Assembly (NCBI RefSeq): GCF_900141915.1
Contig: NZ_FQZG01000013.1
Location: 1-64,000 of the forward strand
DNA: 64,000 nucleotides
Direction: 5' to 3'
Source: Tessaracoccus bendigoensis DSM 12906
GTDB taxonomy: Bacteria > Actinomycetota > Actinomycetes > Propionibacteriales > Propionibacteriaceae
Shown: positions 2,904 through 56,092 of the stretch, in pieces
How positions within the stretch are numbered: position 1 is the stretch's first letter
How the letters are laid out: each line of letters begins with the position of its first letter
Made by a program: the position numbers and the translations under genes
Notes under the pieces: generated by a model
The model's database searches: none
Told to the model about the DNA's origin: nothing
The model's input: only the letters and a program-made list of their open reading frames with translations

Positions 2904-2979
2904 GGGTTTCTCCTCCCGGGCCTTGGCCCTGGGTCAGCCTACGCGCCGCAACGCACGGCACCTATCCCGGACGCGGCAA

Positions 2980-3005
2980 CCGCGCCGCACAGTGGTGCGG
3001 CGCGG
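2980..3005 (-). terminator. GC-rich hairpin between two operon segments
   Basis: A perfect 11-bp stem, CCGCGCCGCAC (2980-2990) and GTGCGGCGCGG (2995-3005), with loop AGTG. It lies 15 bases past the stop of the oxidoreductase gene read leftward. There is no downstream U tract, as is common in high-GC actinobacteria. It could terminate or attenuate transcription before the dehydrogenase gene, whose own promoter would have to lie in 2904-2980. Confidence 0.6.
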
Positions 3006-3020
3006 TCGGCGTCATGCTTT

Positions 3021-6299: not shown

Positions 6300-7391
6300 T
6301 CAGCGGTGCACGAGTTCCAGGATCCGGGCCGCGGCCTCGTCATAGGTGTTGTGCCCCGCCCTGGACGCGACCGCCGCCTTCTTCGCCGCCGCACGCAGGC
6401 CCGCTCGCCATTGCGGGTCGGTGGCGAACCTACGCAGCGCCTCCGTCGTCTCGGGCACGTCACGCACCAGGGTCCCCGCGCCAGTGCGGCGGATCAGGTC
6501 GGCGACCCTGGGCAGCGGCGTCGCGATCGTCGGCAGCCCACAGGCCTGGTATTCGTACACCTTCGACGGCATCGCCTCCACGAATGCCGGGGTGTCGGCC
6601 AATAGGCACAGGCCGACGTCGGCGCCCTCCGCGACCCGCCACGCCCGCAGCGGCTCCTGCCTGCCATGCGAGGTGATCCGGCGGGCGTCGGGCTGCGTCA
6701 ACCTCTCGGCGAGCCAATCCCGATCGGTGTCTGCCACCGGGCCGACCAGGTCAAGCGTCCAAGGCTCCTCATCCCCCGACGTCGCCGCGACGGCCTCGAC
6801 CATCGTGCGCAGCCCCCTTGTCTCCCGGTTGTCACCGATGTAGATCGCACGCCACGGCGCCTCGTCGCTCATCTCTCCCGGTTCGGGGAGCAGCGAGAAG
6901 TCGGGCTCGTTGCGCATCACGTACCTGCTGCGGGCCACGCCGGGCGGCACGTGCTCGTCGGCCACCAGAACCAGGTCGGCCCGCGCGATCAGCCTGGTCA
7001 GGAGCCGGACCGCGCCCTGCAACACCTTAAGCAGGGGCATCGGCACCCAGGCCCGGTCCCTGAGGAGCGACGCGTAATCCTCGTGCACGTCTGCGACCCA
7101 GGCAGCCCTGCCACGGGTGGCGAGGAAGGCCGCAAGCGATGTCTCCGGGTCGATCGTGATCAGCACGTCGGCGGTCGGACGCCACGGGAGGGCGAGGGCC
7201 TGCACGGCCCGCACGACCTTGTGCGCCCTGCGCCGCGAATGCACCCGGCATCCGACCGGGCCGCGCTGCGCGTCACCCAGACCGAACACCTCGACGTCGA
7301 AGCCGGCCCGGCGGAGTGCCGCGGCCGTGCGGTGCAGCCTTGCGTCGGCGACGTCATGCCCAGTTGTGACGATGGCTGCCCTGGGGTTCAG
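6300..7391 (-). CDS. GT-B (family 4-like) glycosyltransferase with a likely CTG start
   Basis: A retaining-type glycosyltransferase of about 363 residues. AIYIGDNRETRGLRTMVEAV opens the donor lobe and MPSKVYEYQACGLPTIAT is the nucleotide-sugar binding signature. The first in-frame ATG/GTG/TTG is at 7289, but the frame upstream continues with a convincing GT N-terminus (RAAIVTTGHDVADARLHRTA). The only plausible start there is CTG at 7391, preceded by GGAGGA and overlapping the TGA of the ABC ATPase gene. I therefore call the gene from 7391. Sugar specificity is unknown. It is the last gene of the exporter unit starting at 9095. Confidence 0.78.
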   Translation of the reverse strand: MNPRAAIVTTGHDVADARLHRTAAALRRAGFDVEVFGLGDAQRGPVGCRVHSRRRAHKVVRAVQALALPWRPTADVLITIDPETSLAAFLATRGRAAWVADVHEDYASLLRDRAWVPMPLLKVLQGAVRLLTRLIARADLVLVADEHVPPGVARSRYVMRNEPDFSLLPEPGEMSDEAPWRAIYIGDNRETRGLRTMVEAVAATSGDEEPWTLDLVGPVADTDRDWLAERLTQPDARRITSHGRQEPLRAWRVAEGADVGLCLLADTPAFVEAMPSKVYEYQACGLPTIATPLPRVADLIRRTGAGTLVRDVPETTEALRRFATDPQWRAGLRAAAKKAAVASRAGHNTYDEAAARILELVHR

Positions 7392-8257
7392 AAGTCCTCC
7401 ATCACTACGGCCTCGTCCCCGACCTTGAGGAACTCGAGATACGCGTCGCAGATCTCCTTCGGTTCGCCGCGGCGGATCAGCCGTCCCTTGTGCAGCCAGA
7501 TGACCTCGTCGGACATCTCCTGGATAGAGGTGAGCGCATGCGAGACCAGGAGCATGGTGCCGGCCGTCTCCATCAACTCAGACATCTTCTGGCTAGCCTT
7601 CTGCTTGAACTTCGCATCTCCTGCGGACAGCGCCTCGTCGATGATGAGGATGTCGGGGTTCATGAACACCGACACCGAGAACGCCAGTCGTGAACGCATG
7701 CCGGAGGAGTAGGTGCGCAGGGGCATGTCGATGAAGTCGCCGAGATCCGCAAAACCGGCGATCTCGTCGAACCTCTCGTTGACCTGATCGCGGGAAAGCC
7801 CCGCGGCCATCCCGCCGAGGAGGACATTCTCGCGGCCGGTCAGAGCGGTGTTGAAACCGACGCCGAGCGCGAGCAGGGTGCTGACCTTGCCACGCACCTC
7901 GATGCGGCCCTTCGTCGGGGGAAGGATCCCTGCGACGGCGCGCATCAGCGTCGACTTGCCAGCACCGTTGGCGCCGATGAATCCGGTGCACTTCCCGGCA
8001 GGCACGTCGAAGGACACGCCTTTGATCGCCTTGACCTCACGGTAGCGGACCTGCTCATGCCTGGCTTTGCGCACAAGGGCGTTCTTCAGTGAGTTCTTGC
8101 GCTCAAGACTCACCCGGTAGGTGATGTCGAGGCCGTCGACGACTACGGCAGCGTCGTCTGAGTAGAGGGTGGGCGCGGCGACCGACTCGTCGCTCTTGGG
8201 CTCCTCGGCCCCTGGGTCGCGCTCGATTGGTTTCTCAGAGGCGGACAGCGAACTCAC
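7388..8257 (-). CDS. ABC-2 exporter ATP-binding protein (Wzt/TagH type)
   Basis: A 289-residue polysaccharide-export ATPase. After a roughly 40-residue acidic N-terminal extension come Walker A (GFIGANGAGKSTLMRAVAG), the ABC signature (TYSSGMRSRLAFSV) and Walker B (ILIIDEALSAGD). The spacing matches Wzt/TagH proteins that energise export of lipid-linked O-antigen or teichoic-acid-like polymers. It lacks the long C-terminal carbohydrate-binding domain of some Wzt proteins. The GTG at 8257 overlaps the permease end by 23 bases; the frame stays open to 8521, but that part is antisense-like shadow. It pairs with the permease at 8235-9095. Confidence 0.9.
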   Translation of the reverse strand: MSSLSASEKPIERDPGAEEPKSDESVAAPTLYSDDAAVVVDGLDITYRVSLERKNSLKNALVRKARHEQVRYREVKAIKGVSFDVPAGKCTGFIGANGAGKSTLMRAVAGILPPTKGRIEVRGKVSTLLALGVGFNTALTGRENVLLGGMAAGLSRDQVNERFDEIAGFADLGDFIDMPLRTYSSGMRSRLAFSVSVFMNPDILIIDEALSAGDAKFKQKASQKMSELMETAGTMLLVSHALTSIQEMSDEVIWLHKGRLIRRGEPKEICDAYLEFLKVGDEAVVMEDF

Positions 8258-9095
8258 GCTCCCTTGACATGTAGACGAGGCCACCGACGATCGTGAGCAG
8301 GAGGCTCCAGCCGACCGCGATGACAATGTAGGTGAGGGAAGGATTGGCGGCATGCGTGGCGTCGCCCCAGATACCGAGCACCGAGGTGGCCGGGTTGAGC
8401 TGCACGAACGGGCCCATGTGCTTCCCGATGGCGGTGTCGAGGAACTGCTCTGCCGTGTAGAGCACCGGCGAGGCGTACAACCAGATCCGGATGATGTAGG
8501 GCAGGAACTGGGCGGTGTCACGGAAGTAGACCTGCAGCGTGGCGACGAGCGCCCCGATGCCCATCCCGACCATGGTGGCGCAGAGAATCGCGAGCGGAAT
8601 CCAGAGCATGTGCACGGTGAACGGCTTGCCCCACAGCAGGTGGATCACCAGATACACGAGCAGCGTAGGGAGGTAGCGACGCACCGCCAGATATGTGTTC
8701 GACACGATCAGCAGCAGCTTTGGGAAGTTCATGTTCAGCACGAGCGACCCGGAGTTTGTGACCGAAGTGGCGCACGACTGGATGATTCCGGTGATCAGGA
8801 AGAACAGGAACAGGCCGCCTGCGATCTGGGGGAAATCCACGCTGCCGCCACTTGAGCCGCGCAGCACGACAACCAGCAGGAAGTAGACCGCCGCCAGCAG
8901 CAGCGGGTTGACGACCAGCCACAGTTGCCCGAGCACCGTGTTGGTGTTCGCGGCACGCATGTTGGTGTTTGCCAGTTCCATGGCGAAGTCCCAACGCCGC
9001 CACAGGTCCCGGAAGTACTCCCCCATCCGGGGAAGGCCCGCCTTGTGCGGGGTGTAAATGTGTACGTCCGAGCGAGACTCGGTCTTTCCCTTCAC
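8235..9095 (-). CDS. ABC-2 exporter permease (Wzm/TagG type)
   Basis: A 286-residue inner-membrane protein of the ABC-2 polysaccharide exporter family. A cytosolic N-terminal segment (GEYFRDLWRRWDFAMELANT) precedes hydrophobic spans near LGQLWLVVNPLLLAAVYFLL, GGLFLFFLITGIIQ, LPTLLVYLVIHLLW, WIPLAILCATMVGMGIGALV, and a last span before SREREFAVRL. TNTVLGQLW and the C-terminal ASPVLY stretch are typical of O-antigen/teichoic-acid permeases. Start GTG 9095 has a poor Shine-Dalgarno; a later ATG in MGEYFRDL is possible. It would form the channel half of exporter 1 with the adjacent ATPase. Confidence 0.88.
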   Translation of the reverse strand: MKGKTESRSDVHIYTPHKAGLPRMGEYFRDLWRRWDFAMELANTNMRAANTNTVLGQLWLVVNPLLLAAVYFLLVVVLRGSSGGSVDFPQIAGGLFLFFLITGIIQSCATSVTNSGSLVLNMNFPKLLLIVSNTYLAVRRYLPTLLVYLVIHLLWGKPFTVHMLWIPLAILCATMVGMGIGALVATLQVYFRDTAQFLPYIIRIWLYASPVLYTAEQFLDTAIGKHMGPFVQLNPATSVLGIWGDATHAANPSLTYIVIAVGWSLLLTIVGGLVYMSREREFAVRL

Positions 9096-13004: not shown

Positions 13005-14669
<1,665 letters not shown>

Positions 14670-15092: not shown

Positions 15093-16262
15093 GTGAGCGA
15101 TCCGTTCGACCAACTCCGTGCCCGACATGACTTCGTTCTGTTCGCCGTCACCTATCCGCATGGGTGGCGCACCGGGTCGGAGTTCGTGCGGCAACGCGTT
15201 CGCGCCTACGCCGCCGCGGGGCTGGAGGGTGTGGTCGTCGACTATTCCCCGCTCAATGTCGAGTCGGCCCGCTGGCAGCCGGAGGACGACGCCCCGGTCC
15301 TGTCGATCCGGGCGGATCAACTCGCCTCTGCGATCGACGCCGCCGTCGCAGGCGGGTCAGCGCTGCTGGCGCATTCCCCGACCCCGGTCGCCATCGATGA
15401 ACTACGTGCCCGCGTGCCCGGCGGGCGGCTCGCCATCTGGTTCCACGGCTACGAGGTCCGAGACTACCGCCGGCTGCACGGCAACACCGACACGCACACC
15501 CTGACGGCGATCCGGCACATCCGCGACGGCCAGAACCGCGACCGGTTCAAGGCGGCGGCCCCCCTGTTCGCCGACCCGGCCATCACCAAGGTATTCGTCT
15601 CAGCCACCCAACGGCGCCACTCGGAGTTCGACGTCGGAATCCCGGCCACCAACACGCGGATCATCCCCAACTTCATCGACGACGACACCTACCGCGCCAG
15701 GGTGCGGCAGCCAGGTGAGGAGCGCCGCATCCTCCTGCTGCGCAGCTTCGCCACCCACAACTACGCAGGCGACATCGCCGTCAAGGCCCTCGACCTTTGC
15801 TCGCGCCGCGACGGCTTCTCCGACCTCGCCATCACGATCCGCGGCTACGGCGCACTGTTTCGGGAGGCGGTCGCCGACGTGCGCCGGTTCGACAACGTGA
15901 CCGTCACGGAAGGTTTCTCCAGCACCGCCCAGATGGCTGCCCTCTACGACGCGCACGGCGTTGCACTAGTGCCCACCCGCTACGACACACAGGGCGTCAT
16001 GCTCGGCGAGGCGATGGCCAGCGGCGCGGTCACGATCACCAACCCGGTCGCCGCGATCCCCGAGTTCACGGACGCGAAGTCGTCGCTGGTGCCGAGGGGC
16101 AACGATCCGCGCGCGTTCGCCGACGCGATCTGGCATCTGATCGGGCACCCGGAGGTGATGCCAAAGATGTCGACGGCCGCCGCCGAACGCGTCCGGGCGC
16201 AGTGCGGCCGGGACCAGACGATCGGTCTCGAACTGGAGCTCATCAAGGAGTTGTCCGCATGA
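15093..16262 (+). CDS. GT-B (family 4-like) glycosyltransferase
   Basis: A 389-residue glycosyltransferase. IWFHGYEVRDYRRLHGN lies in the acceptor lobe, IPNFIDDDTYRAR marks the inter-lobe hinge, ILLLRSFATHNYAGDIAVKA opens the donor lobe, and VPTRYDTQGVMLGEAMASGA is a clear GT4 E-x7-E-like site. GTG start 6 bases after the coiled-coil gene. Its stop overlaps the next gene as ATGA. Donor and acceptor are unknown. Confidence 0.85.
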   Translation: MSDPFDQLRARHDFVLFAVTYPHGWRTGSEFVRQRVRAYAAAGLEGVVVDYSPLNVESARWQPEDDAPVLSIRADQLASAIDAAVAGGSALLAHSPTPVAIDELRARVPGGRLAIWFHGYEVRDYRRLHGNTDTHTLTAIRHIRDGQNRDRFKAAAPLFADPAITKVFVSATQRRHSEFDVGIPATNTRIIPNFIDDDTYRARVRQPGEERRILLLRSFATHNYAGDIAVKALDLCSRRDGFSDLAITIRGYGALFREAVADVRRFDNVTVTEGFSSTAQMAALYDAHGVALVPTRYDTQGVMLGEAMASGAVTITNPVAAIPEFTDAKSSLVPRGNDPRAFADAIWHLIGHPEVMPKMSTAAAERVRAQCGRDQTIGLELELIKELSA

Positions 16263-17314
16263 GTCTGCACAGCCCGGTCGTGTTCACCGACGACCCCGCC
16301 CTCACGTCCGAGGCGCGTGCCAGGCGTTGGCCGGTGGTCTCCCGGGACGGCGCCACGCTGCGCATGTCCGGGGTCAGGCAGTCTGCCCCGCTGCCCGAGC
16401 CCAACATGGACATCACCGCCGGATCGCTAACCGACGTGGCCGCGGGCGGTTGGAAGTTCGTCCTCGACTGGGTCGCCAAGTATGTCCACCGTCCGCTCCT
16501 CGTGCTCGAGCCGGGCTCCTGGGCAGGCGACCTGGGTCGCTGGGCCGAGGCGACCCGCGGCTGGGGCTGGACCGAGGCGAGCGAGGTTCCCGGCAAGGGC
16601 CCGAGCCTTTCCGGGTTGGACAGCGCAGCCCTTGCCGAGTTGCCTGCCGCACCGGAACCTCCCAGCCCCGCCGACCGGATCCCCGGCCGCGGCCGGATGC
16701 TCCTGGTGCGCCACGGCGAGTGGACGGAGCGACAAGGAGCCTGGGTCGACGCGGCCGAGCGCATCGGATTGCTCGTCGACATCGCGTCGGATCGCATTCT
16801 GGACGGCCGCGACCGGGTCCACGTCGTGGCAGACCTCGGCCCGGCGAACCTGACCCTCGACGCGGGCACGGGACCGCTCGACCCCGCCTATGCGCTGGCG
16901 CTGGCCCGCGCGGTCGACTCCGGCGACCCGACGTTGGGCGCGGCCGGCCACTGGCAGGTCGCGTTGGAGCACTGGTTCAAGCCCCGCCCCGACGACTTCG
17001 ATGTGGTCGTGCTCGCTGGCCCACCCGTCGGGTTCTTCGGGTTCGGCGCGTTCGCTTCCCGACACTGGTACGCGCGCGTCGTGATCGATCATGCAACGCA
17101 TGCCCCGTGGCCCGCCGACGAAACCGCGGCGCTACTCCTGAAGGACTGGGAGCAGGGGTGGCACCTCGCCGCCGACGCCGTCACGGTCGCCGACGAACCG
17201 ACGCTCGGCCAGGTCGCTCCCAGCGGCCCGGACGCGACGGTCGAGGTCGCCGATGGGGCCAGGATGGAGACGCTGCTGCAGGTACTGAGCGACCACTCGT
17301 TCACCGCGATGTGA
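16259..17314 (+). CDS. Unknown protein of the glycopolymer locus
   Basis: A 351-residue protein that I do not recognise. No signal peptide or membrane segment is seen. It is Trp-rich (WKFVLDWVAKYVHRPLLVLE, ATRGWGWTEAS) with alternating hydrophobic blocks (RMLLVRHGEWTERQGAWVDA, HVVADLGPANLTLDAG, FDVVVLAGPPVGFFGFGAFA) that suggest an alpha/beta fold. ATG 16259 shares ATGA with the preceding GT stop, so translation is probably coupled and the product likely works with that enzyme. The same frame is open back to 15797, but only as GT antisense-style shadow. Confidence 0.65.
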   Translation: MSLHSPVVFTDDPALTSEARARRWPVVSRDGATLRMSGVRQSAPLPEPNMDITAGSLTDVAAGGWKFVLDWVAKYVHRPLLVLEPGSWAGDLGRWAEATRGWGWTEASEVPGKGPSLSGLDSAALAELPAAPEPPSPADRIPGRGRMLLVRHGEWTERQGAWVDAAERIGLLVDIASDRILDGRDRVHVVADLGPANLTLDAGTGPLDPAYALALARAVDSGDPTLGAAGHWQVALEHWFKPRPDDFDVVVLAGPPVGFFGFGAFASRHWYARVVIDHATHAPWPADETAALLLKDWEQGWHLAADAVTVADEPTLGQVAPSGPDATVEVADGARMETLLQVLSDHSFTAM

Positions 17315-17472: not shown

Positions 17473-19788
17473 ATGCAGACACGTTCCCGACGCCGATTCA
17501 TCCCATTCCTGGTTGCCGCGCTGATCGCCGCGATCGGCATCGTCGCGGTCCCGGAGCCGCAGCCCGCCGTGGCAGACGACCACCCCTACACCACTCCCGG
17601 TGAACGGGAGTACAACGGCCGTAAGTGGCGCACCACCTGCTCAAACTACTCCACCAATGTGCAGCGCTGCCGGGCGGAAATCTTTGCCACGCAGGCCAGG
17701 CTGGTCAACGGCAGGTATCAACTCGTCAACGAGTACGTCTTCAACAACCTGACCTACCTTCCCTCGCCCAGGGAGAGCTGGAAGGACAACCCGTTGGCGA
17801 AGGCCGGCCAGTTCACCGGAACGGACGGCCGGATCTGGCAGACCGAGTGCGATACCGCATGGACCGGCAAGAACGGTTGCCGCAGCTTCGCCTGGGTCAC
17901 CGTCATCAACCAGACCAAGACCGCCACCGGGTGGAAGTTCACGCCCGAGAACAAGTGGGTCTTCAACAACGTCGTCCAGTTCAAGGCTTCGCCGAAACCA
18001 CCGGTCGATCCCGCCTACGACAACCCGTGCAACGCCAAGGCACCCGACGGCTGGGCGTTCACGGAAGAGGGGCGCCCGCACGTCATCAAGACGCCGTACA
18101 CCCCGAACACCAACTACAACCCGATCTCGCTGGCGAACTTCATCAAGGTGGCTTTGCGGTCCACGACCCTGAGTGACGCCGACCGGTTGTGCTTCGCCCT
18201 GCTGGGCGCCAACCACCTGATCGACGACGGCGCGACGACGCGCACGTACCAGGGTGAGACCAGCCTTTGGCTGCCCTACCCGTTCGGGTTCAGCGCCAAC
18301 CCCTCCATCCCTGCCCTGACGACCGGCTGGTACTCGGGCCTCGGCCAGGCAGGCGCCATGACCTCGATGCTGGAACTCGCCAACTTCACCGGCGACCCCA
18401 AGTGGGATGCGTACGCCGACCAGCTGTTCAACTCGTACCTCGTCCCGATGTCCGAGGGTGGCTTCACCAACCGCGATAACGGCTTCCTATGGTTCGAGGA
18501 GTATCCCACCGACCCGCCGACGGTGGTCTACAACGGCCACTTCCAGGCGGTGCTCGCGCTCCACGCATACGGCAGGGAACGCCGTTCGGCCGACCCGGAG
18601 AAGTCGGATGCGGCCTTTGCCCTCTTCGATGACACGCTCGGGGCACTAGCCACCCAGGTCCCGAAGATGGAGGTGCCCGCCGAGGGCGGCACCATGTCCT
18701 CCTACGACATGGTGCGCGGCTACGACGCCGTCCCCCTGCGGGCCGTGAGCGTCGGTTCGGGCACCGCCACGATCACCGACACCCGCCTCAACGAAGCGCC
18801 CAGCACCGCGCTCCCGATCGGCACGCAGACCACTTTGGCCCCAAACAGGCTGCTCAACTCTTCGATGGAGACCAGCGCCGGCGCGCTGACCGGCTGGGTC
18901 GTCGTCAACAACAACTTAGCGGGCATCACGTTGAGGGACGGTTGGCTCGGGGTGCACCCGACCGGCAACGCGTGGGCGGGCGTCGAGCAGACGATCGCGG
19001 CAGGCACGTTCCCGGCGGGCTCCGAGTTGTCCTTCTCGATGATGTCGCGCCTCGAGATCCCCGAGGGAAAGGCGGGCACCGGCGGCAAGGTCGCCATCTA
19101 CTCGGTGTGCCCCAGCGGCACCACGTTGATCCACGAGAACGCCAAGAACCGCTCCCGTGAGGCGGCGTGGTCGGCCACCACCTTCAGGGCCCCGGCCGCC
19201 AACTGCTCGATCAAGGTGCAGCTGCTCACGTACTCGTACACGGTGACCAACACCACGGCCTGGTATGACGATGTCCAATTGCGGCTGGCCGATCCGGTCG
19301 GCGTCAGCATGACGCCGGAGTACGACCTGCTCGTGCACCGGACGCCCAGCAACCACCTCACCCTTCAAGGTTCGGGGCAGGTTCAGGTGCAGGGCTGGTA
19401 CGGCGGACGCTGGCAGGACATCGGCGACCCGGTCACGCTGAGCACCGACGGCGCCCAGGTGGAGATCCCCGAGCTGTACACGGGCCGCAACATCAACATC
19501 AACTACCACGACGGCCACGTCTCCGAGCTGCAGCGCATCGCGGCTTTCGCCGACCAACAGGGGTTCCCCGAGGAAGCCGAGATCCTCGACGCCACCGCGT
19601 ACAAGCTGAGCCGGATGTCGGTTGGCACGCCATACAACAAGGACAACCTCACCCGCGACTCCGAGCCGGAGACCATCACCCTCGACATGCTCACCGGGAC
19701 CATCGAGGTGGCCGCCGAGCCGGAGCCGATGGCCATCCAGCCCAGGTCGGTCCCGACCAGCATGGAACTGCCCGAGGCCACCAGCTGA
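17473..19788 (+). CDS. Secreted D-glucuronyl C5-epimerase-like protein with accessory domains
   Basis: 771 residues. An N-terminal signal (RRRFIPFLVAALIAAIGIVA, likely cut near AVADDH) implies export. Residues about 45-175 hold two related Cys-pair modules (W-x-T-x-C ... C, each ending WVFNN or YVFNN). Residues about 185-420 match the C-terminal fold of D-glucuronyl C5-epimerases: TGWYSGLGQAGAMTSML, GGFTNRDNGFLWFEEYPTDP and VVYNGHFQAVLALHAYGR. From about 440 to 615 a jelly-roll-like, possibly carbohydrate-binding segment follows, then a beta-rich tail. The family inverts C5 of glucuronate in polymers such as heparosan. Here the substrate may be the locus's own uronic acid polymer (inference). 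Confidence 0.72.
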   Translation: MQTRSRRRFIPFLVAALIAAIGIVAVPEPQPAVADDHPYTTPGEREYNGRKWRTTCSNYSTNVQRCRAEIFATQARLVNGRYQLVNEYVFNNLTYLPSPRESWKDNPLAKAGQFTGTDGRIWQTECDTAWTGKNGCRSFAWVTVINQTKTATGWKFTPENKWVFNNVVQFKASPKPPVDPAYDNPCNAKAPDGWAFTEEGRPHVIKTPYTPNTNYNPISLANFIKVALRSTTLSDADRLCFALLGANHLIDDGATTRTYQGETSLWLPYPFGFSANPSIPALTTGWYSGLGQAGAMTSMLELANFTGDPKWDAYADQLFNSYLVPMSEGGFTNRDNGFLWFEEYPTDPPTVVYNGHFQAVLALHAYGRERRSADPEKSDAAFALFDDTLGALATQVPKMEVPAEGGTMSSYDMVRGYDAVPLRAVSVGSGTATITDTRLNEAPSTALPIGTQTTLAPNRLLNSSMETSAGALTGWVVVNNNLAGITLRDGWLGVHPTGNAWAGVEQTIAAGTFPAGSELSFSMMSRLEIPEGKAGTGGKVAIYSVCPSGTTLIHENAKNRSREAAWSATTFRAPAANCSIKVQLLTYSYTVTNTTAWYDDVQLRLADPVGVSMTPEYDLLVHRTPSNHLTLQGSGQVQVQGWYGGRWQDIGDPVTLSTDGAQVEIPELYTGRNININYHDGHVSELQRIAAFADQQGFPEEAEILDATAYKLSRMSVGTPYNKDNLTRDSEPETITLDMLTGTIEVAAEPEPMAIQPRSVPTSMELPEATS

Positions 19789-19881: not shown

Positions 19882-21117
19882 ATGTTCTCGAGCGTCTGCG
19901 TTGTCGGCCTGGGATACATCGGCCTACCAACGGCCGCGATCCTGGCTGCGCAGGGGATCCATGTCACCGGCGTGGACGTCAAGGAGAGCTCGGTCGAGGC
20001 GATCAACGCCGGCCACGTGCCGTTCGTCGAACCCGACCTTGAGCGCTTCGTGGTCGACGCGGTCGGGAAAGGGCTGCTCCATGCCCAGACGGAACCGGGC
20101 CCCGCCGACGTCTACATCGTGGCGGTTCCGACGCCGTTCCACGAGGACAAGAGCGCGGACCTGTCGTACATCGAGGCGGCGGCCAAGTCGATCGCCCCGC
20201 ACCTGAGCGGCAACGAACTGCTGATCCTCGAGTCGACATCTCCGCCCGGAGCGACCCATCACATGGCCGATGTCGTGTTCGAATCACGCCCAGACCTCGC
20301 CGACTCCGGTTTGTTGTTCGCGCACTGCCCGGAACGCGTGCTGCCCGGCCGCGTCATGATCGAGTTGGTCGACAACGACCGCATCATCGGAGGCATCACC
20401 CCCGAGGCGGCCGAGCGGGCCGCCGACCTCTACCGTTCCTTCTGCAAGGGCGAACTTCTCCTCACCGACGCGACGACCGCCGAGATGGCCAAGCTCGTCG
20501 AGAACTCATTCCGCGACGTCAACATCGCGTTCGCGAACGAATTATCCGTCATCGCCGACAAGCTCGGCATCGACGTGTGGGAACTGATCGAACTGGCCAA
20601 CCATCATCCGCGCGTCAACATCCTGCAGCCCGGCCCCGGAGTCGGTGGCCACTGCATCGCCGTCGACCCCTGGTTCATCGTGTCGGCCGCCCCGGATGAG
20701 GCGCGCCTGATCCGCAGCGCCCGCGAGATCAACGACGCGAAGCCCGGTTGGGTCATCGACAAGGTGCTCGCCGCGGCCTACGGGCTCGATGCCCCGAAGG
20801 TCGCGCTGCTCGGGTTGGCGTTCAAGCCGAACATCGACGACCTACGCGAGTCGCCCGCGCTGGCGATCGCGGCGCAACTGGCCGACCGGATGCCCACCGC
20901 CCAACTGTTGGCGGTCGAGCCGCACGTACACGAGTTGCCCCGTCAGCTGGCCGGGCGCGACAACGTCACGCTGACCCCGCTCGCCGAGGCGCTTGAAACG
21001 GCCGACATCCTCGTTGTCCTCGTCGACCACGACGTATTCAAGGCCGTGCCTTCCGACAAGGTCGCCGGGAAGCACCTGGTCGACACCAAGGGTCTCTGGG
21101 ACCGCAAGAAGAAATGA
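19882..21117 (+). CDS. wecC: UDP-N-acetyl-D-mannosamine dehydrogenase
   Basis: A 411-residue dehydrogenase, expected to convert UDP-ManNAc to UDP-ManNAcA with two NAD+. NAD motif VVGLGYIGLPTAAI (residues 8-21), VPTPFHEDKSADLSYIEAA, and the active-site block PRVNILQPGPGVGGHCIAVD with catalytic Cys258; this last block is characteristic of WecC/MnaB enzymes. ATG with GGAAGGAAA upstream. The needed UDP-ManNAc would come from the 2-epimerase at 26812-27954. Its stop overlaps the following gene by ATGA. It differs clearly from the other dehydrogenase (1611-2903), implying two different uronic acids or redundancy. Confidence 0.9.
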   Translation: MFSSVCVVGLGYIGLPTAAILAAQGIHVTGVDVKESSVEAINAGHVPFVEPDLERFVVDAVGKGLLHAQTEPGPADVYIVAVPTPFHEDKSADLSYIEAAAKSIAPHLSGNELLILESTSPPGATHHMADVVFESRPDLADSGLLFAHCPERVLPGRVMIELVDNDRIIGGITPEAAERAADLYRSFCKGELLLTDATTAEMAKLVENSFRDVNIAFANELSVIADKLGIDVWELIELANHHPRVNILQPGPGVGGHCIAVDPWFIVSAAPDEARLIRSAREINDAKPGWVIDKVLAAAYGLDAPKVALLGLAFKPNIDDLRESPALAIAAQLADRMPTAQLLAVEPHVHELPRQLAGRDNVTLTPLAEALETADILVVLVDHDVFKAVPSDKVAGKHLVDTKGLWDRKKK

Positions 21118-21986
21118 ATCAGGCCCAACGACTCGTGCGACTTGCCGGACGGTTCAAGAACCACGTCACACCCCTGCTCGCCCTCACCGAAGGCCTTGTG
21201 CTGGGCGGGGGCCTCCTGCTGGTGGTCGATCATGCCATCCGCGGCGATGCACTGAGCGCGGTAGGGGCCCTCGCGTTGACGTTGGCCGCTGCGCTCCTCA
21301 CGTGGAAGCTCCACACCACAGGCGTGGCCGTCGGGCAGCTCCGCACGCTCCTGAAGCACGCCCCGGCGCCCGCTCCGCAGGTGACGGTCGTGCCAGCACC
21401 CGCCCCGCAGGCGCCCGACCCGCGCGAGAAGCTCAACACCATCGGAACATTTACCCCCGAGACCATCCCCGGCGCGGAGTCCGGTCGGATCGCAGCGGCC
21501 GTCACAACGGATCCGGATGCCCCGTTCCGGCTTCTCGTCGCGACAAAGGGTGCCAGCGGTGGTGGCGCGGCGGGCCGCAGCCTCGCGCTCGTCGGTTCCG
21601 ATGGGCTCGCACAAGCGTTGGCGGGACACTGCGCCGTCCACCGCATCCACCCCAGCATGAGCCAGGCGGAGTTCGTCAGCGCTGCCCCCGAGATCCTGGT
21701 GATCGAGGAGGACGCGTTGAACGGCGGCGCCTGGGATGGCGCCCTCGCACCCCAGGGGTCGCAACTGCTGCTCGAGCTTCGGGTCGCGATGGCGTCGATC
21801 CGGGCCGCTGAGGGATTCATCTACGTCATCCCCACCCGCGGCATGCAGGGGATGGCGGCTGAGGCGATGAGGGCCGACACCGTGCTCGTCGACGACGAGT
21901 TCGCGGCCCGGTTCACGGCCGAGGACGCACCCGACAGCCTGCTGAAGACGTTGGGGAATTACCGTCTCGGGGTGCCTGCGCTGTGA
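21114..21986 (+). CDS. Membrane-anchored unknown protein
   Basis: A 290-residue protein I do not recognise. Two adjacent hydrophobic spans (LLALTEGLVLGGGLLLVVDH and LSAVGALALTLAAALLTWKL, residues about 22-65) form a membrane hairpin. A Pro/Ala linker (APAPAPQVTVVPAPAPQAPD) follows, then a cytosolic alpha/beta domain with a methyltransferase-like feel (EILVIEEDALNGGAWDGALA, then a helix and strand). A methyltransferase fold is only a guess. It overlaps both neighbours by 4 bases (ATGA or GTGA), so it is translationally coupled to wecC and the tandem GT. Confidence 0.6.
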   Translation: MNQAQRLVRLAGRFKNHVTPLLALTEGLVLGGGLLLVVDHAIRGDALSAVGALALTLAAALLTWKLHTTGVAVGQLRTLLKHAPAPAPQVTVVPAPAPQAPDPREKLNTIGTFTPETIPGAESGRIAAAVTTDPDAPFRLLVATKGASGGGAAGRSLALVGSDGLAQALAGHCAVHRIHPSMSQAEFVSAAPEILVIEEDALNGGAWDGALAPQGSQLLLELRVAMASIRAAEGFIYVIPTRGMQGMAAEAMRADTVLVDDEFAARFTAEDAPDSLLKTLGNYRLGVPAL

Positions 21987-24130
21987 CCCGCCGCAACATC
22001 GTCATCTACGGCGACGTCAACCTCAACATCGTGGACGGTTCGGCCGCGTGGCTGGCGTCCCTCGCGGAAACGCTGACTCTGACTGACTCGACCGTCCATG
22101 TGGTCCTCAAGGCAACGGTGACGACCGACCGGTTGTTGCGCCGGATGGCGGCCAACCCCCACGTCGTGCTACACGAAGCGACCCCACGGGAGGGCCAACC
22201 TGCCATGACGGTCGACGTAGCGGTCGACAGGTTGGAAGAAGTCACCGCGCAGGTCGGGGCGACCGTCCTGATCACACGTGGGCGTGACCTGTCGCTTGCC
22301 GTGGCCCGTTCCGACGCGCTAGCCCCCATCCTGTGGGCCTACGTCACCGACTTCGCGTTCCCGTTCTCGATCCTGCCCGCAGCCCAGCATGCGCAACTCC
22401 GGGAGATCGCAACCCGCGCGTGCAGAATGTTCATGCAGACCGAGGACAGCCGCAGCTACCTCGAATCGATCGTCCCCGAGGCTGCGGGCAAGACTCTCCT
22501 GATGACGCCGACGGTGCCAGACGATTTCTTCATCGACGAGCCGATCGAGGCGGACGGCCCGCTCAAGCTGATCTACTCCGGCAAGCATCACCCCGATTGG
22601 CGCACCCTCGAGATGCTCGAACTCCCGGCGCGCCTGGCGGAGATCGGGGTCGAGGCGACGCTCACCGTCCTCGGCGACAAGGTCAGCGCACCGGACAAGG
22701 TCTGGGTCAAGGCGATGCGTTCCGGGCTGGAACAGCCCCCCGAATCGGTGACGTGGGGTGGCGGGTTGCCCCGCGAAGACGCGGTCGCTGAGATCTCCCG
22801 GCACGACGTCGGGCTCAGCTGGCGCACTTCCCGGCTCGACAACAGCCTGGAGATCTCCACCAAGCTGTTGGAGTACGCCGCCGCGGGTGCAGCCCCGCTC
22901 CTCAACCGCACCCGAGCACACGAGGCCCTCCTCGGGGTCGACTACCCCCTGTTCATCGACGATGATTCGACCGACGCAGTGGTCGCGACCCTGGCTGCGG
23001 CCAGGGGCAACCTCGCAGAGGCGCGGGCCACGGCCCGCGCGGCCGCCCGGCGCTACTCAAGCAGCGCGACGGCACTGCGCCTCGAGAGCTACTTCGCCCG
23101 ATCCGAGCCCGATCTCGGGGCGCATCCCGCGCGGAGTCAGCCACTGAACGTCGTCGTCGCCGGGCACGACCTGAAATTCGCGGGCGAGTTGCTGGCCATG
23201 CTGCAGGCCCGCCCGGACGTGGAGCTGCGGATCGATCAGTGGGAGGCCCTCTCAAGCCACGATGAAGCCGACTCCGAAGAACTCCTCGCCTGGGCCGATC
23301 TCGTCATCTGCGAGTGGGCAGGGCCAAACGCCGTGTGGTATTCGCAACGGGTCGCCCCGCACCAGCGGTTGTTGGTGCGACTGCACCGGTTCGAGCTCAC
23401 GTCCGCTTGGATCGGCGACATCGCCATCGACAAGGTCGACGCAGTGATCACGGTCTCCGAGTACTACCAGGACATGGTGCGCGCCAACACGGATTGGCCC
23501 CACGAACTGATCCACGCCATCCCGAACGGCCTGGACATGCAGGATCTGAACAGGCCGAAACTGGAAGATGCCAGGTTCACCCTTGGCCTCGTCGGCATGG
23601 TGCCCTTCCTGAAGCGCCCCGACCGCGCCCTCGACCTGCTCGAGGCGCTGCGCGCAAGGGATCGCCGGTTCAGGCTGGCGATCCGCGGCAGAAAGCCCTG
23701 GGAATACCCGTGGATCTGGCGCAAGCCGGAGGAGCAGGAACCGTACCGGAGGTTCTTCGAACGGATCGGCTCTTCGGACGACCTGTTGGAGAACGTCACA
23801 TTCGAGCCCTTCGGCGCCGACATGGGCAACTGGCTCCGGCGCGTCGGCTGGGTACTGTCCCCCTCTGAGCACGAAAGCTTCCACCTGGCACCTGCCGAGG
23901 GCATGGCCTCGGGGGCGCTGCCCCTGTTCTGGCCCCGCGACGGGGTCGTCCAGATCTTCGGAGACCGGTTCCTGTACGGCAGCGTCGAAGAGATGGCAGA
24001 CGCGGTCCTCGCCATGGTCGACGACCAGGACTCCCGGCGTCTTGCTGTCGAGTTCGCGCAGGCGGCCGCGACACGGTTTGACGCCCCAGTCGTCGACGCC
24101 CAGTGGCTTGACCTCCTACTCGCGCCCTAA
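21983..24130 (+). CDS. Tandem two-module glycosyltransferase
   Basis: 715 residues, two GT-B-like modules. Module 1 (about 1-375): IVIYGDVNLNIVDGSAAWLA, donor lobe LKLIYSGKHHPDWRTLEMLE, and EISTKLLEYAAAGAAPLLN at the nucleotide-sugar site. Module 2 (about 385-715): NVVVAGHDLKFAGELLAMLQ, AIPNGLDMQDLNRP, FTLGLVGMVPFLKRPDRALD, and SPSEHESFHLAPAEGMASGA, an intact E-x7-E-like pattern. The gene ends a rightward operon that starts with wecC. Two transferase modules in one protein suit addition of a disaccharide or alternating polymerisation; this is not provable from sequence. Confidence 0.8.
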   Translation: MTRRNIVIYGDVNLNIVDGSAAWLASLAETLTLTDSTVHVVLKATVTTDRLLRRMAANPHVVLHEATPREGQPAMTVDVAVDRLEEVTAQVGATVLITRGRDLSLAVARSDALAPILWAYVTDFAFPFSILPAAQHAQLREIATRACRMFMQTEDSRSYLESIVPEAAGKTLLMTPTVPDDFFIDEPIEADGPLKLIYSGKHHPDWRTLEMLELPARLAEIGVEATLTVLGDKVSAPDKVWVKAMRSGLEQPPESVTWGGGLPREDAVAEISRHDVGLSWRTSRLDNSLEISTKLLEYAAAGAAPLLNRTRAHEALLGVDYPLFIDDDSTDAVVATLAAARGNLAEARATARAAARRYSSSATALRLESYFARSEPDLGAHPARSQPLNVVVAGHDLKFAGELLAMLQARPDVELRIDQWEALSSHDEADSEELLAWADLVICEWAGPNAVWYSQRVAPHQRLLVRLHRFELTSAWIGDIAIDKVDAVITVSEYYQDMVRANTDWPHELIHAIPNGLDMQDLNRPKLEDARFTLGLVGMVPFLKRPDRALDLLEALRARDRRFRLAIRGRKPWEYPWIWRKPEEQEPYRRFFERIGSSDDLLENVTFEPFGADMGNWLRRVGWVLSPSEHESFHLAPAEGMASGALPLFWPRDGVVQIFGDRFLYGSVEEMADAVLAMVDDQDSRRLAVEFAQAAATRFDAPVVDAQWLDLLLAP

Positions 24131-26811: not shown

Positions 26812-27954
26812 TCAGACGCCGAAGTCGGGGAGCCTGTCCCCGACACCGAGCAGGGCGGCGATCGCCGCGACGGAACGCTCAGCCGCGTGCCCGTCCCCAT
26901 ACGGGTTGACGGCGTTGGCCATCGCCTCGTAGGCGGCCGGATCGTCCAGCAGATTCATCGAATGCGCGACGATCGCATCGGTGTCGGTGCCGATCAGTTT
27001 CACCGTCCCCGCGGTGACGGCCTCGGGGCGTTCCGTGTTCTCCCGGAGCACCAGCACAGGTTTACCCAGGCTCGGAGCCTCTTCCTGGACGCCGCCGGAG
27101 TCGGTGAGGATGAGCTTTGCCCATTGCTGGGCGTGGACGAACTGGGGGTAGTCGAGCGAATCGCAAACCACGACGTTGTCGAACCGGTCGATCACCGGAA
27201 TGATCACCTCGCGCACCTTCGGGTTCGCATGCGCGGGGAACACGAACAGGTGATCCGGGGCCCGCTCGGCGAGTGTCGCGACCGCCTTCGCGATCCGGGC
27301 CATGGGCTCGCCCCAGTTCTCCCTGCGGTGGGCGGTCAACAGCACCATCGGAACTCCGGCGTTACAGCCCTCCGCCAATCGTGGGTCGCTGAACTCGACC
27401 GGGCGGCCGATGGTCCATTTCAGGGCGTCGATCACGGTGTTGCCGACCACGGGGATCATGGCCGGGTCGACCGCCTCACGCAGCAGGTTCTGTTTGGAGA
27501 TGGTGGTCGGGGCCAGGTGCAGCGCCGTGACCTGACCGGCGAGTTTCCGGTTGGCCTCCTCGGGGAACGGGGAGTGGATGTCCCCGGAGCGCAGCCCGGC
27601 CTCCAGGTGGACGACCGGGATCTCCTCGTAGAAGCACGCGATCGCGGCCATCGCGACGGTGGTGGTGTCACCCTGCACCAGCACGGCGTCAGGCTTGAAG
27701 CGCGACAAGACATCGGGGAGCCGCTCGAGGATCCTTGCGGACAGCTGCGTCAGGGTCGCGCCGTGCCGGAACACGTTCAGGTCATAGTCGGGGGTCACGC
27801 CGAACCAGCGGTTGATCTGGTCGAGCATGTCACGGTGTTGCCCGGTCGAGACGACGACCGGTTCGAGCACGGGGGACGCCTGGAGCGCCATGATCACCGG
27901 TGCAACCTTGACCGCCTCGGGCCGCGTCCCGTAGATGACCATTACCTTCTTCAT
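26812..27954 (-). CDS. wecB: UDP-N-acetylglucosamine 2-epimerase (non-hydrolysing)
   Basis: A 380-residue cytosolic enzyme interconverting UDP-GlcNAc and UDP-ManNAc, or a WbpI-like epimerase of the diacetamido uronate. Family blocks: IYGTRPEAVKVAPVI, STGQHRDMLDQ, VQGDTTTVAMAA, HLEAGLRSGD, FPEEANRKL, TAHRRENWG and TDSGGVQEEAPSLGKPVLVL. ATG 27954 gives the standard N-terminus MKKVMVIYGTRPE; the open frame back to 28380 is shadow. It feeds the WecC-like dehydrogenase and possibly the WlbABC-type pathway. It is followed by a GT2-like gene one base later. Confidence 0.93.
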   Translation of the reverse strand: MKKVMVIYGTRPEAVKVAPVIMALQASPVLEPVVVSTGQHRDMLDQINRWFGVTPDYDLNVFRHGATLTQLSARILERLPDVLSRFKPDAVLVQGDTTTVAMAAIACFYEEIPVVHLEAGLRSGDIHSPFPEEANRKLAGQVTALHLAPTTISKQNLLREAVDPAMIPVVGNTVIDALKWTIGRPVEFSDPRLAEGCNAGVPMVLLTAHRRENWGEPMARIAKAVATLAERAPDHLFVFPAHANPKVREVIIPVIDRFDNVVVCDSLDYPQFVHAQQWAKLILTDSGGVQEEAPSLGKPVLVLRENTERPEAVTAGTVKLIGTDTDAIVAHSMNLLDDPAAYEAMANAVNPYGDGHAAERSVAAIAALLGVGDRLPDFGV

Positions 27955-28888: not shown

Positions 28889-30238
28889 GTGAAGCGGGTA
28901 ATCACCTACGGCACGTTCGACCTGTTCCACGATGGTCACAAACGGCTGCTTGAGCGCGCCAGGGCCCTCGGGGACTATCTCATCGTCGGTGTCACCTCGC
29001 CCAGCTACGACAACGCACGGGGCAAGCTCAACGTCCGGCAATCACTGGTTGAACGGATCGGAAACGTCGTCGAATCCGGCTTGGCCGACGAGGTGATCGT
29101 CGAGGAGTACGAGGGGCAGAAGGTTCTCGACATCCAGCGCCTCGGCGTCGACGTCTTCGTGATCGGGTCCGACTGGGCGGGGAAGTTCGACCACCTGGCC
29201 GACTACTGCGAGGTCGTCTACCTGGAGCGCACCAAGGGGGTCTCAAGCACAGGGCTGCGTGAGGCGGGCGGGGTCCTCCGCATGGGCATCATCGGCACCG
29301 GCCGGATCGCGCGGAGGTTCGTCAGGGAGGCCCGCTACGTCTCGGGAGTCAACGTCGAGGAGGTCTGGGCCAGGACCCACTCCAACGCGCTGGCCTTCGT
29401 TGAGGAGTTCGAACTGGCGGGGGCTCCTGAAACGCTGCCCGACCTGCTGCAAGGAATCGATGCCGTCTACATCGCCACCCCCCACGAGACGCATGTCGGG
29501 TTCGCGCGCCTAGCGCTGGAGGCCGGGGTCCATGTTCTCTGTGAGAAGCCGATGGCGCTCAGCGTCGCGGAACTTGAACAGCTCTCCACGCTCGCCGACG
29601 AGAGGTCGCTGGTGCTGCTGGAGGCCCTGAAGACGGCGTTCGCCCCCGGGTTCCAGAGGATGGTCGCCGTCGCCCGCAGCGGCACGATCGGCAGCATCCG
29701 CTCGGTGAGCGCGACATTCACCAAACTCGTCCGCTCAGGGAGGGAGGTCGAGGGACCGGAGGCCGGGGCACTCTCCGAGCTGGCCTCATACCCCTTCCTC
29801 GCCATCGTGAAACTGCTGGGCACGTCTCCGGAGTCGGTAACTGCCCGGGCACTGAAAACGGACGGGCACACCGTAGACCTTTTCGCACGCGTCAACGTCG
29901 ACTACCCGCACGCGATCGCCACCGCGACGGTGGGGCTGGGCGTCAAATCCGAGGGCAGCCTTGTGGTTTCGGGCACGGAGGGCTACCTGTACGTCCCTGC
30001 GCCCTGGTGGCTCACCGACTACTTCGAGACGCGCTTCGAGGATCCGCGGCAGAACAGGAAGTACTACACCCCGTTCGACGGCGACGGGCTGCGCTACGAG
30101 TTGGCCGAGTTCAGCTCGATGATCCGGGACGGGGCGAGCGAGTCGTTCATGCTGCGACGCTCCGACTCGCTGGCCATCGCGGCCCTGATGGAGCGGTCCC
30201 GACGCGATGCACGGCCGTTCGGCGGCACCCAGCCGTGA
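28889..30238 (+). CDS. Fusion: TagD-like cytidylyltransferase + Gfo/Idh/MocA oxidoreductase
   Basis: 449 residues. Domain 1 (1-127) is a glycerol-3-phosphate-type cytidylyltransferase: GTFDLFHDGHKRLLERA with HDGH (14-17) and the RTKGVSST motif (114-121), expected to make a CDP-polyol from CTP. Domain 2 (about 132-449) is an NAD(P) oxidoreductase: MGIIGTGRIARRFVREA, then HVLCEKPMALS with EKP at 219-221. The junction is very short, so this is a true fusion, not a read-through. Coupled reduction of a sugar phosphate and CDP activation is suggested but unproven. GTG start; stop overlaps the Stealth gene (GTGA). Confidence 0.85.
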   Translation: MKRVITYGTFDLFHDGHKRLLERARALGDYLIVGVTSPSYDNARGKLNVRQSLVERIGNVVESGLADEVIVEEYEGQKVLDIQRLGVDVFVIGSDWAGKFDHLADYCEVVYLERTKGVSSTGLREAGGVLRMGIIGTGRIARRFVREARYVSGVNVEEVWARTHSNALAFVEEFELAGAPETLPDLLQGIDAVYIATPHETHVGFARLALEAGVHVLCEKPMALSVAELEQLSTLADERSLVLLEALKTAFAPGFQRMVAVARSGTIGSIRSVSATFTKLVRSGREVEGPEAGALSELASYPFLAIVKLLGTSPESVTARALKTDGHTVDLFARVNVDYPHAIATATVGLGVKSEGSLVVSGTEGYLYVPAPWWLTDYFETRFEDPRQNRKYYTPFDGDGLRYELAEFSSMIRDGASESFMLRRSDSLAIAALMERSRRDARPFGGTQP

Positions 30239-31635
30239 GCCGCTCCGGCGTCTCTGCGATCGCGCACCGGACGCTCCGGCTGGCCGAGGCGGGACGGGAG
30301 GGAGCAGGCCATGCCTGGACCCGCATCCGCGACCGCGGGCTCGCCTTCCCCGGCTCCGTCTGGGTGACGTTCCGGGGCAACTCGGTGCCCGCTTCACCCT
30401 GGGAATCGTCGCGCGCTGCAGTCGACGCCACGCTCGCGACCTGCGTCGAGGCGCTCGGGTCGCTCCCGCATCGGGTCGACGCCGATGGCTGGGAACTGCC
30501 GACGATCACGGTCGCCGACTGGGATGCGGCGATGGCCGCCCTCCGCCGCACCGACGGGCCACCTCTGTACACCGGCGACCCCCACCCACTGCCTCTGGAC
30601 CGGGCGCACCCGTCCGAGGTGGCCCGCCTGTTCCACTTCTGGGAGGTGGGTGGCCGCATGGTGGCGGGGCCCGACGTCGGCGTCGACATCTGCCTCTCGG
30701 ACACCACCCGGGCACCCCGGGTGGGTGACATCGACCTCGTGTTCACGTGGGTCGACGGGAGCGATCCGACGTGGCGGGCCGCACGGGACGCAAGGCTCGG
30801 TCGATCCCCAGGGCTGCACCCGACGGCGGCCAACGACGCCCGCTTCGATCAGATCGACGAGCTGCGATACGCGTTGCGCGCCGTCGAGCGCTACGCCCCC
30901 TGGCGTCGCCACGTGTTCCTGGTGACCAACGGCCAGCGCCCCTCCTGGCTGGCCGAGGAGTTCCCGCATGTGGTCCTCGTACGCCACGAGGAACTGTTCG
31001 ACGATCCGACGGCATTGCCGACGTTCAACTCACACGCGATCGAGTCGCGGCTGCACCACATCGACGGCCTGGCGGAGCGCTGGGTCTACTTCAACGACGA
31101 CGTCTTCCTCGGCCGCTACACCCCACCGTCGGTCTTCTTCGATGAGTCGGGCAACCCGCGGGTGTTCCTGGCCGAGGAGACCATACCGGACGTGTCGCCG
31201 TCCCGCGAGGACCAGCCGGTCGTCGCCGCGGCGAAGAGCAACCGGGAGGTGCTGGCGCGGCTGACCGGCCAACCGCTGCGGCACAAGCTCAAGCACGTGG
31301 CGCATCCGCAGCTGCGGTCGGTCGGTGCAGAGCTAGAACGCCGCGCACCCGCCGAGTTCCGCGAGACCGGCCGCTCGCCGTTCCGCGCGCCGGAGAACCT
31401 GTCGGTCGCCTCCTCGCTCGCCCCCCACTACGCCCTGGCCACCGGAAGAGCCAGCCTTGGTAGCGTCTCGCATTTCTATGCAGACGTGGGCTCTCCCGAG
31501 TTGGCGTGGCGGCTCCCCCACCTCCTCGAGTGGCGCGACGCGGACATCGCGTGCCTCAACGCGACCGAGTCGTCGCCACGTGCCAGCCGTGCGGTCGTCC
31601 GCGGTTTCCTGGACGCTTACCTGCCGACGGCTTAA
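30235..31635 (+). CDS. Stealth-family sugar-phosphate transferase
   Basis: 466 residues. Stealth conserved region 1 is DIDLVFTWVDGSDPTW (about 165-180) and region 2 is RFDQIDELRYALRAVERYAP then FNSHAIESRLHHIDGL and YFNDDVFLGRY. Region 3 is KHVAHPQLRS, and the C-terminus carries the region 4-like CLNATESSPRAS. Stealth enzymes transfer hexose-1-phosphate (or related) units from nucleotide sugars to make phosphodiester-linked capsule or wall polymers. GTG 30235 overlaps the upstream stop; about 160 residues precede region 1. It is coupled to the CDP-forming fusion protein, which could supply or modify its partner substrate. Confidence 0.9.
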   Translation: MSRSGVSAIAHRTLRLAEAGREGAGHAWTRIRDRGLAFPGSVWVTFRGNSVPASPWESSRAAVDATLATCVEALGSLPHRVDADGWELPTITVADWDAAMAALRRTDGPPLYTGDPHPLPLDRAHPSEVARLFHFWEVGGRMVAGPDVGVDICLSDTTRAPRVGDIDLVFTWVDGSDPTWRAARDARLGRSPGLHPTAANDARFDQIDELRYALRAVERYAPWRRHVFLVTNGQRPSWLAEEFPHVVLVRHEELFDDPTALPTFNSHAIESRLHHIDGLAERWVYFNDDVFLGRYTPPSVFFDESGNPRVFLAEETIPDVSPSREDQPVVAAAKSNREVLARLTGQPLRHKLKHVAHPQLRSVGAELERRAPAEFRETGRSPFRAPENLSVASSLAPHYALATGRASLGSVSHFYADVGSPELAWRLPHLLEWRDADIACLNATESSPRASRAVVRGFLDAYLPTA

Positions 31636-51865: not shown

Positions 51866-51867
51866 CG

Positions 51868-55908: not shown

Positions 55909-56092
55909 GCCGTGACCCCTTCCTGAAGTTGCTCGACGCCTTGAGGAACCACTGACCAATCGCGTCCTCGCTGCGGCGCACCGGATCGGGCGATCTGCCC
56001 CCACCACGCCTAACTTAACCGACGCCCAGTCCGTGCCGATGCCACCGACGTCGCTGCCACCGGTGCGCCCCGGTGGCATTAGGGTACGAGGC
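55909..56092. promoter_or_regulatory. Divergent eccC/eccD promoter region
   Basis: 184 bases between the leftward eccC and rightward eccD starts must hold both promoters. TTAACCGACGCC and TAGGGT (within ATTAGGGTACG) are possible -35 or -10 fragments for eccD. No strong inverted repeat was seen apart from CACCGGTG-type GC sequence near 56058. Confidence 0.35.

Follow-up and report, generated by a model that had tools for sequence, protein, structure and literature searches.

The first 64,000 nucleotides of contig NZ_FQZG01000013.1 of Tessaracoccus bendigoensis DSM 12906 (assembly GCF_900141915.1), which are referred to here as the window, contain a gene at 17473-19788 on the forward strand for an apparently secreted protein of 771 amino acids. 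A Pfam match and a fold comparison confirmed that this protein is a member of the D-glucuronyl C5-epimerase (GLCE, PF06662) family. Judging from sequence and structural models, it is likely a secreted uronate C5-epimerase acting on a finished, exported wall polymer, with inversion at C5 outside the membrane. New in this work are a basic module of 134 amino acids, which recurs on many exoproteins including the epimerase itself, and the co-occurrence of this module with the epimerase in the genus.

An earlier note on this DNA had recognised signature blocks of the GLCE type. All of them (GWYSGLGQ, WFEEYPTDP and YNGHFQAVLALH) are present in the open reading frame, and the family was borne out by a profile search, in which Pfam C5-epim_C (PF06662) matched with 67.5 bits against a curated cut-off of 23.3 (E 1.4e-18). 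The genome has no second PF06662 match. The one here covers residues 271-413 and positions 11-143 of the 188 in the profile; it ends early because an insert containing a carbohydrate-binding module (CBM) separates the two catalytic tyrosines. Truncation of the domain was ruled out as the cause, as the remainder sits beyond the insert. When the single protein was compared with PDB sequences, zebrafish GLCE came first (4.7e-06) and human GLCE next (0.0015), all GLCE chains lying between 4.7e-06 and 0.0016 and an unrelated hydrolase following at 0.0045. With a profile of 13 sequences, the window protein included, the GLCE chains reached 4.7e-18 to 3.4e-17 (human GLCE 4.7e-18), and the first unrelated chain was found at 0.38. 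The C-terminal piece of the epimerase, compared alone with the PDB, had no GLCE among its matches. The protein begins with a probable signal peptide, recognised by eye, of about 34 residues (1-34, 17473-17574) ending in AVA, as had also been proposed before.

The catalytic domain is encoded in two parts. The first, GLCE-like part (residues 191-417, 18043-18723) contains E343, Y344, N354 and Y411 and is defined by the Pfam match and by a VIA alignment to human GLCE (PDB 6hzz) that starts at residue 191. The second part (residues 671-717, 19483-19623) contains NYHDGHVSEL with Y678 and was placed by profile alignment to GLCE, which is weak for this part alone. Inserted between them is a CBM16/CBM4-like beta-sandwich (residues 453-606, 18829-19290), with a VIA Z of 16.2 to the CBM16 chain 2zew_B over 136 residues (root mean square deviation (rmsd) 2.4) and of about 14.7 to CBM4. 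The stretch between Y411 and Y678 is 266 residues long, where residue numbers leave 17 between Y560 and Y578 of GLCE. The carbohydrate-binding domain that the earlier note considered probable thus exists, but it is placed inside the epimerase domain and splits its catalytic part.

After re-alignment of the AlphaFold2 model with VIA, human GLCE (6hzz) ranked first with a Z of 20.2 over 247 residues (rmsd 3.6), the alignment running from model residue 191 to 767 and spanning the insert. Animal GLCE also has an N-terminal beta-hairpin dimerisation domain and a central beta-sandwich; the VIA alignment begins at residue 180 of the GLCE chain. Other alpha/alpha toroid families were rejected on their lower VIA Z: among the 50 matches listed, 7tem and 4mu9 scored 14.5, the AGE-type 8h1l 14.4 and the GH76 chain 6u4z 14.2. 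We take all four to be toroid enzymes.

A catalytic set of E499, Y500, N510, Y560 and Y578 is listed for GLCE in PMC13308652. In the profile alignment E343, Y344 and N354 of the window protein align to E499, Y500 and N510, and Y678 aligns to Y578, the surrounding NYHDGHVSEL being opposite WDYHTTHINQL of GLCE. Y411 was equated with Y560 by way of the insert-free relative L002, which was aligned to GLCE, and a common motif, not by direct alignment. Named relatives of the whole protein come from Tessaracoccus, from uncultured Arachnia and from metagenome-assembled genomes (MAGs) of Propionibacteriaceae, and they put the window in the Tessaracoccus/Arachnia group. The five residues are identical in all nine rows of a first alignment (window included) and in 12 of the 13 rows of a second one, made of the window protein and 12 named relatives with the frameshifted L033 omitted; a Tyr occupies the Y678 position in 13/13 rows. 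Both catalytic tyrosines are conserved. The earlier note would have been refuted by a closer fit to another alpha/alpha toroid family or by loss of the catalytic tyrosines, and on both points the outcome favours it. The substrate-complex chain 6i01 (also 6i02) carries Phe in place of Y578, which fits a catalytic role of the tyrosine at the position of Y678.

Several observations weigh against this picture of fold and active site. The piece of the profile alignment that carries Y678 (YHxxH) is weak by itself (i-E 1.3), and in the named family member L036 a Leu replaces the catalytic Glu at the E343 position. The AlphaFold2 model has a mean pLDDT of 73.9, with the active-site loops 346-350, 401-416 and 674-680 under 50. 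In a Foldseek search with this model, CBM-bearing and other beta-sandwich chains were in the lead and the first GLCE chain came 33rd (TMq 0.18); GLCE leads only after VIA re-alignment. The C-terminal piece of the epimerase, compared alone with the PDB, had no GLCE among its matches.

C5-epimerases and uronate lyases have their first chemical step in common. The protein might thus be a polysaccharide lyase, which would abstract the C5 proton, proceed by beta-elimination and cut the cell's own or a foreign uronate polymer; the CBM insert would fit such a degradative enzyme, as would the location of 6 of 13 named family members outside polymer loci (see below). We consider a lyase unlikely, since the listed GLCE catalytic residues are conserved, GLCE is both the best VIA fold match and the sole PDB sequence match well under E 0.001, and the gene in the window is part of a biosynthetic run.

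Behind the signal peptide, residues 37-170 (17581-17982) form a double Cys-pair module. Two Cys-pair modules had been described from the sequence; the units do exist, but they were modelled as one domain of 134 residues, which is repeated genus-wide. Modelled alone, the domain has a pLDDT of 95.1 and is all beta except for one short helix. In an alignment of 30 rows the invariant positions are Cys, Trp, Arg and those of FNNLTY; the modules have a median isoelectric point of 9.5 and carry a median net charge of +7, with values from -2 to 12. Against Pfam, the module of the window matched nothing up to E 1, and 30 modules compared with NCBIfam gave nothing at 0.01. Against the PDB the module model had no Foldseek match at E ≤0.001, and the best VIA Z among Foldseek's top 1000 was 3.5; it is possibly a new fold, although the lack of a PDB match is no proof of this. 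No relatives were present among 94 pattern matches in viral contigs, phage records gave no match, and the best E against viral structures was only 0.046.

The genome of the window contains at least 27 matches to the module. Of 259 encoding stretches found, the best 80 (74 loci) were kept and then scanned for the motif, which gave 100 open reading frames with the module. Counting the epimerases, it is close to the N-terminus in 49 of these, close to the C-terminus in 41 and in between in 10. The module was seen at many places in the genus (L031-L104), at either end of exoproteins. Pfam families were determined for 83 of these 100 proteins, 13 epimerases and 4 others being left out. Among the best 25 of 66 families were LRR (6), subtilase (5), CAP (5), metallophosphatase (5), L,D-transpeptidase (4), Rpf-type (3), M23 (2), lytic transglycolase (2) and glycoside hydrolase family 26 (2). 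The module looks like a widespread unnamed anchor, without a clear counterpart among the solved structures compared.

Within the order, the module was detected in 14 of 391 sampled genomes, all of this genus, and PF06662 in 26 of the 391. At class level the module was found in 6 of 394 genomes, the matches outside the genus being weak. Distant copies (L106-L109, L112-L114) occur in a different family of this class, where four genomes each have three of them near one another; one genome (G470, L107) has the module on proteins that by eye are amidase-like and SpoIID-like. The idea that the module is swapped on existing proteins was not borne out: the four genomes in which a module-bearing Rpf protein was seen (G045, G080, G170 and G184) each hold a module-free one as well, pointing to extra copies, in a motif test that covered 19 of 29 loci and probably includes one false module call (L160).

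Of the 39 genomes in the genus sample, 34 reach 90% completeness or more with no more than 5% contamination. A query with the whole protein found the epimerase in 13 of the 39; in G391 the gene is split by a frameshift, as are many genes of that assembly. In G322 the contig stops 70 codons into a gene at the prfB site; the signal peptide and the start of the module are visible and the fragment is 65% identical to the epimerase of L039, of which it is likely an orthologue, the alternative being another module protein at that site. The 13 genomes and G322 have 11 to 28 module matches each (values near 27 being lower bounds), G119 has one and 24 genomes have none. Counting G322 as a carrier, the multi-module genomes are the epimerase genomes (14/39).

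An rpoB tree comprised 33 of the 39 genomes and 12 of the 14 carriers; G268, G290, G314, G346 and G392 gave no rpoB match and in G393 the gene was in pieces. The epimerase changes state seven times on this tree. With G322 as carrier, all six independent contrasts between multi-copy module and epimerase agree (sign test p 0.031); with any module counted, five agree and one shows no difference (p 0.0625). With G322 as non-carrier, which also applies to the remaining figures of this paragraph, 5.7 of 6 contrasts agree on average (p 0.03-0.06), and the Fisher test gives p 1.7e-9, uncorrected and inflated by relatedness. The module contrasts agree with WlbA in 2.6/6 and with WecC in 3.3/6.

That epimerase and module set mostly come and go together suggests that the epimerase prepares the wall polymer to which the module proteins stick. 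A bolder form of this idea is that a C5-flipped, L-configured wall uronate serves as the docking site for the basic module that tens of exoproteins carry, one of them being the epimerase, and that the multi-copy module set disappears where the enzyme does; we put this forward as a tentative possibility. Standing at somewhat under an even chance, and compatible with epimerase activity, is the view that the epimerase simply rides along with the wall-anchoring module as one more passenger. Polymer and module would have come first, the ligand would not be made by the enzyme, and the co-variation would show just a common dependence of module and epimerase on the same polymer. The two are indeed not fully independent, because the epimerase itself carries the module, and the module is present without PF06662 in Brevibacterium senegalense, in a Propionibacterium MAG (L065) and in G119, which also speaks against a strict link. 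On the other hand, polymer genes persist in genomes lacking the multi-copy module (the WlbA/WbpB gene is in 17/25 of these and in 14/14 multi-module genomes), and on the tree the multi-copy module follows the epimerase better than it follows WlbA or WecC.

At the level of gene families, the surroundings of the epimerase gene in the window correspond to a teichuronic-type wall-polymer locus, with genes for uronate sugars, glycosyltransferases and an exporter. On the strand of the epimerase the order is a Glycos_transf_1-type glycosyltransferase (15093-16262), a conserved protein without family match (16259-17314), the epimerase, a UDP-N-acetylmannosamine dehydrogenase (WecC, 19882-21117) 93 bases downstream, a second conserved protein without family match (21114-21986), which overlaps the wecC stop, and a protein with two glycosyltransferase matches in Pfam (21983-24130). 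The adjoining dehydrogenase and the nearby glycosyltransferases, now found on both sides of the epimerase, had been pointed out in the earlier note; the former matched NF008286 with 572.6 bits (cut-off 459). Four genes on the reverse strand (1611-5700) resemble a set described for the synthesis of UDP-ManNAc3NAcA in PMC10622841. They encode a nucleotide-sugar dehydrogenase, WbpA-like by its position in this 2,3-diamino-uronate set (1611-2903; TIGR03026, 303.5 bits, cut-off 189.8), a GFO/IDH/MocA oxidoreductase (WbpB/WlbA-like, 3021-4022), whose best NCBIfam match, UDP-GlcNAc 3-dehydrogenase, is under its cut-off, a DegT/DnrJ sugar aminotransferase (WbpE/WlbE-like, 4019-5098, start placed from the family match) and a hexapeptide transferase, WbpD-like by position (5104-5700). 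Also on the reverse strand are an ABC ATPase (7388-8521), with teichoic acid and galactan exporters as best matches under their cut-offs, an ABC-2 permease for polymer export (8235-9095) and a UDP-GlcNAc 2-epimerase (WecB, 26812-27948; TIGR00236, 444.5 bits, cut-off 210.15). Several NCBIfam matches of the diamino-uronate and export genes fall under equivalog cut-offs. An argininosuccinate synthase gene (13239-14666, forward strand) lies inside the polymer locus and recurs in seven named relatives.

Elsewhere in the window, two Stealth-type proteins (30007-31632, forward; 34518-36173, reverse) flank a protein of 898 amino acids (31694-34387, reverse) with GT2 and CDP-glycerol glycerophosphotransferase domains; together they are perhaps a second, phosphate-linked polymer system. 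At 28889-30235 (forward) a glycerol-3-phosphate cytidylyltransferase-like domain is fused to a MocA-type oxidoreductase. A subtilase adjoins an FtsK/SpoIIIE protein of 1455 amino acids at 50582-56235, a pair that would seem to belong to a type VII secretion locus. An Rfam scan of the window gave no matches.

In 7 of the 13 named epimerase loci (L031, L032, L033, L035, L038, L041 and L042) the gene sits, as in the window, in the polymer cluster that bears argG. In three of the 13, WecC is adjacent to the epimerase (L032, L033, L042) and 5 kb distant in L031; it is not within the 10-kb flanks in L035, L038 and L041. In L035 and L041 the epimerase is within 1 kb of the diamino-uronate aminotransferase gene, and in L038 it is 4.8 kb away from it in the same cluster. 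Against an enzyme working on a wall polymer, the other six loci (L034, L036, L037, L039, L040, L043) are at a housekeeping site with prfB-ftsEX and/or pfk-aceE markers. The epimerases of G223 and G045 are likewise at this site, whereas neither marker was seen around that of G203. L190 and L192 are at the prfB-ftsEX and/or pfk-aceE site, a second fixed home of the epimerase away from polymer genes. A search of plasmids for the epimerase gave no match. With these counts, the link to the UDP-ManNAc dehydrogenase drawn in the earlier note does not hold as a rule; its interpretation stands for the GLCE-family enzyme, the signal-like start and the wall-polymer locus, and needs correction on the domain layout, the generality of the WecC link and the substrate, for which there are rivals.

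An enzyme that is apparently secreted and has a CBM-like insert could also modify a foreign polysaccharide, such as heparosan-like or alginate-like environmental glycans, and not the wall of its own cell; the two module proteins of 83 that match glycoside hydrolase family 26 would suit this. The wall-polymer cluster position in the window and in 7/13 named loci argues against it, as does the presence of the module on L,D-transpeptidase, Rpf-type, M23 and lytic transglycolase proteins (counts above), families that act on the cell wall. Modification of a foreign glycan therefore appears improbable, slightly more so than a lyase.

For an enzyme acting on the wall polymer of its own cell, the following mechanism can be proposed. 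The module, whose basic character suits an anionic polymer, would keep the epimerase at the wall, and the CBM-like insert would guide the polymer chain into the catalytic cleft. By analogy with GLCE, E343 and Y678 (and Y411) would abstract the proton at C5 of a uronate within the chain and then restore it, by which some D-manno (or D-gluco) residues would become L-gulo (or L-ido).

Which uronate would be the substrate can be stated with little confidence. The 2,3-diamino-uronate gene set and a UDP-glucose-type dehydrogenase bring 2,3-diacetamido-2,3-dideoxymannuronic acid (ManNAc3NAcA) and glucuronic acid (GlcA) into competition with N-acetylmannosaminuronic acid (ManNAcA). ManNAc3NAcA is perhaps the first candidate, at about one chance in three; ManNAcA and GlcA come close behind it, level with each other. 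WecC, counted at >500 bits or, for G391, from gene pieces, occurs in 8/13 epimerase genomes and 3/26 others, and its link to the epimerase (Fisher p 0.002, 4.0/6 contrasts, G322 as non-carrier here and below), which favours ManNAcA, is stronger than that of WlbA (13/13 against 18/26; p 0.035, 2.0/6 contrasts). The weakness of the WlbA link counts against ManNAc3NAcA. The genome has three dehydrogenases of the nucleotide-sugar type; the third, located elsewhere, best fits the UDP-glucose 6-dehydrogenase model (578.5 against a cut-off of 757), which makes GlcA possible. A ManNAcA polymer as the settled substrate was ruled out by the loci of the relatives, the WecC distribution and this UDP-glucose-type dehydrogenase.

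We take Cutibacterium acnes to belong to the same family as Tessaracoccus. A polysaccharide of C. acnes with ManNAc3NAcA is described as a wall polysaccharide (PMC6598116), and a teichuronic-like polymer of Streptomyces with ManNAc3NAcA serves as a lectin receptor (PMC13274773). For these polymers, as here, the 2,3-diamino-uronate gene set predicts ManNAc3NAcA; the accessible parts of both papers describe no C5-epimerase step.

The protein shares with animal GLCE, the C5-epimerase of heparan sulfate (PDB 6hzz, 6i01, 4pw2), the PF06662 family, the fold of the catalytic domain and the catalytic E/Y/N/Y/Y set, and differs in the CBM-bearing stretch between the tyrosines, the N-terminal anchor-like module and the context of a bacterial wall polymer. 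By description it resembles the bacterial C5-epimerase of Bermanella marisrubri (Raedts 2013, as cited in PMC13308652), which is said to work by a GLCE-like mechanism and is reported to be active on O-desulfated heparin. In Halobacterium salinarum, Agl32 likewise inverts C5 of a uronate already within a glycan, but according to PMC13308652 it is without the catalytic residues and overall structure of GLCE. If a flipped uronate is indeed the ligand of the module, the closest parallel would be CsaB pyruvylation and SLH display, where a polymer-modifying enzyme co-occurs with a wall-binding module on exoproteins; genomic co-presence was used as support there too (PMC6030368). The chemistry here would be different (C5 inversion, outside the cell) and the module is unrelated, as it had no Pfam match, and hence none to SLH, even at E 1. 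A literature search linking "teichuronic" and "C5-epimerase", with most subscription journals outside its coverage, found nothing, and within the same coverage no work on Tessaracoccus walls or on guluronic or iduronic acid in actinobacteria was seen among the titles and abstract openings listed.

A GLCE-type C5-epimerase within a Gram-positive wall-polymer system would, if true, add a new step to wall glycobiology. If, in addition, the product of the epimerase is the ligand of the module, the pair would be a counterpart to pyruvylation and SLH, in which a wall mark made by an enzyme sorts exoproteins.

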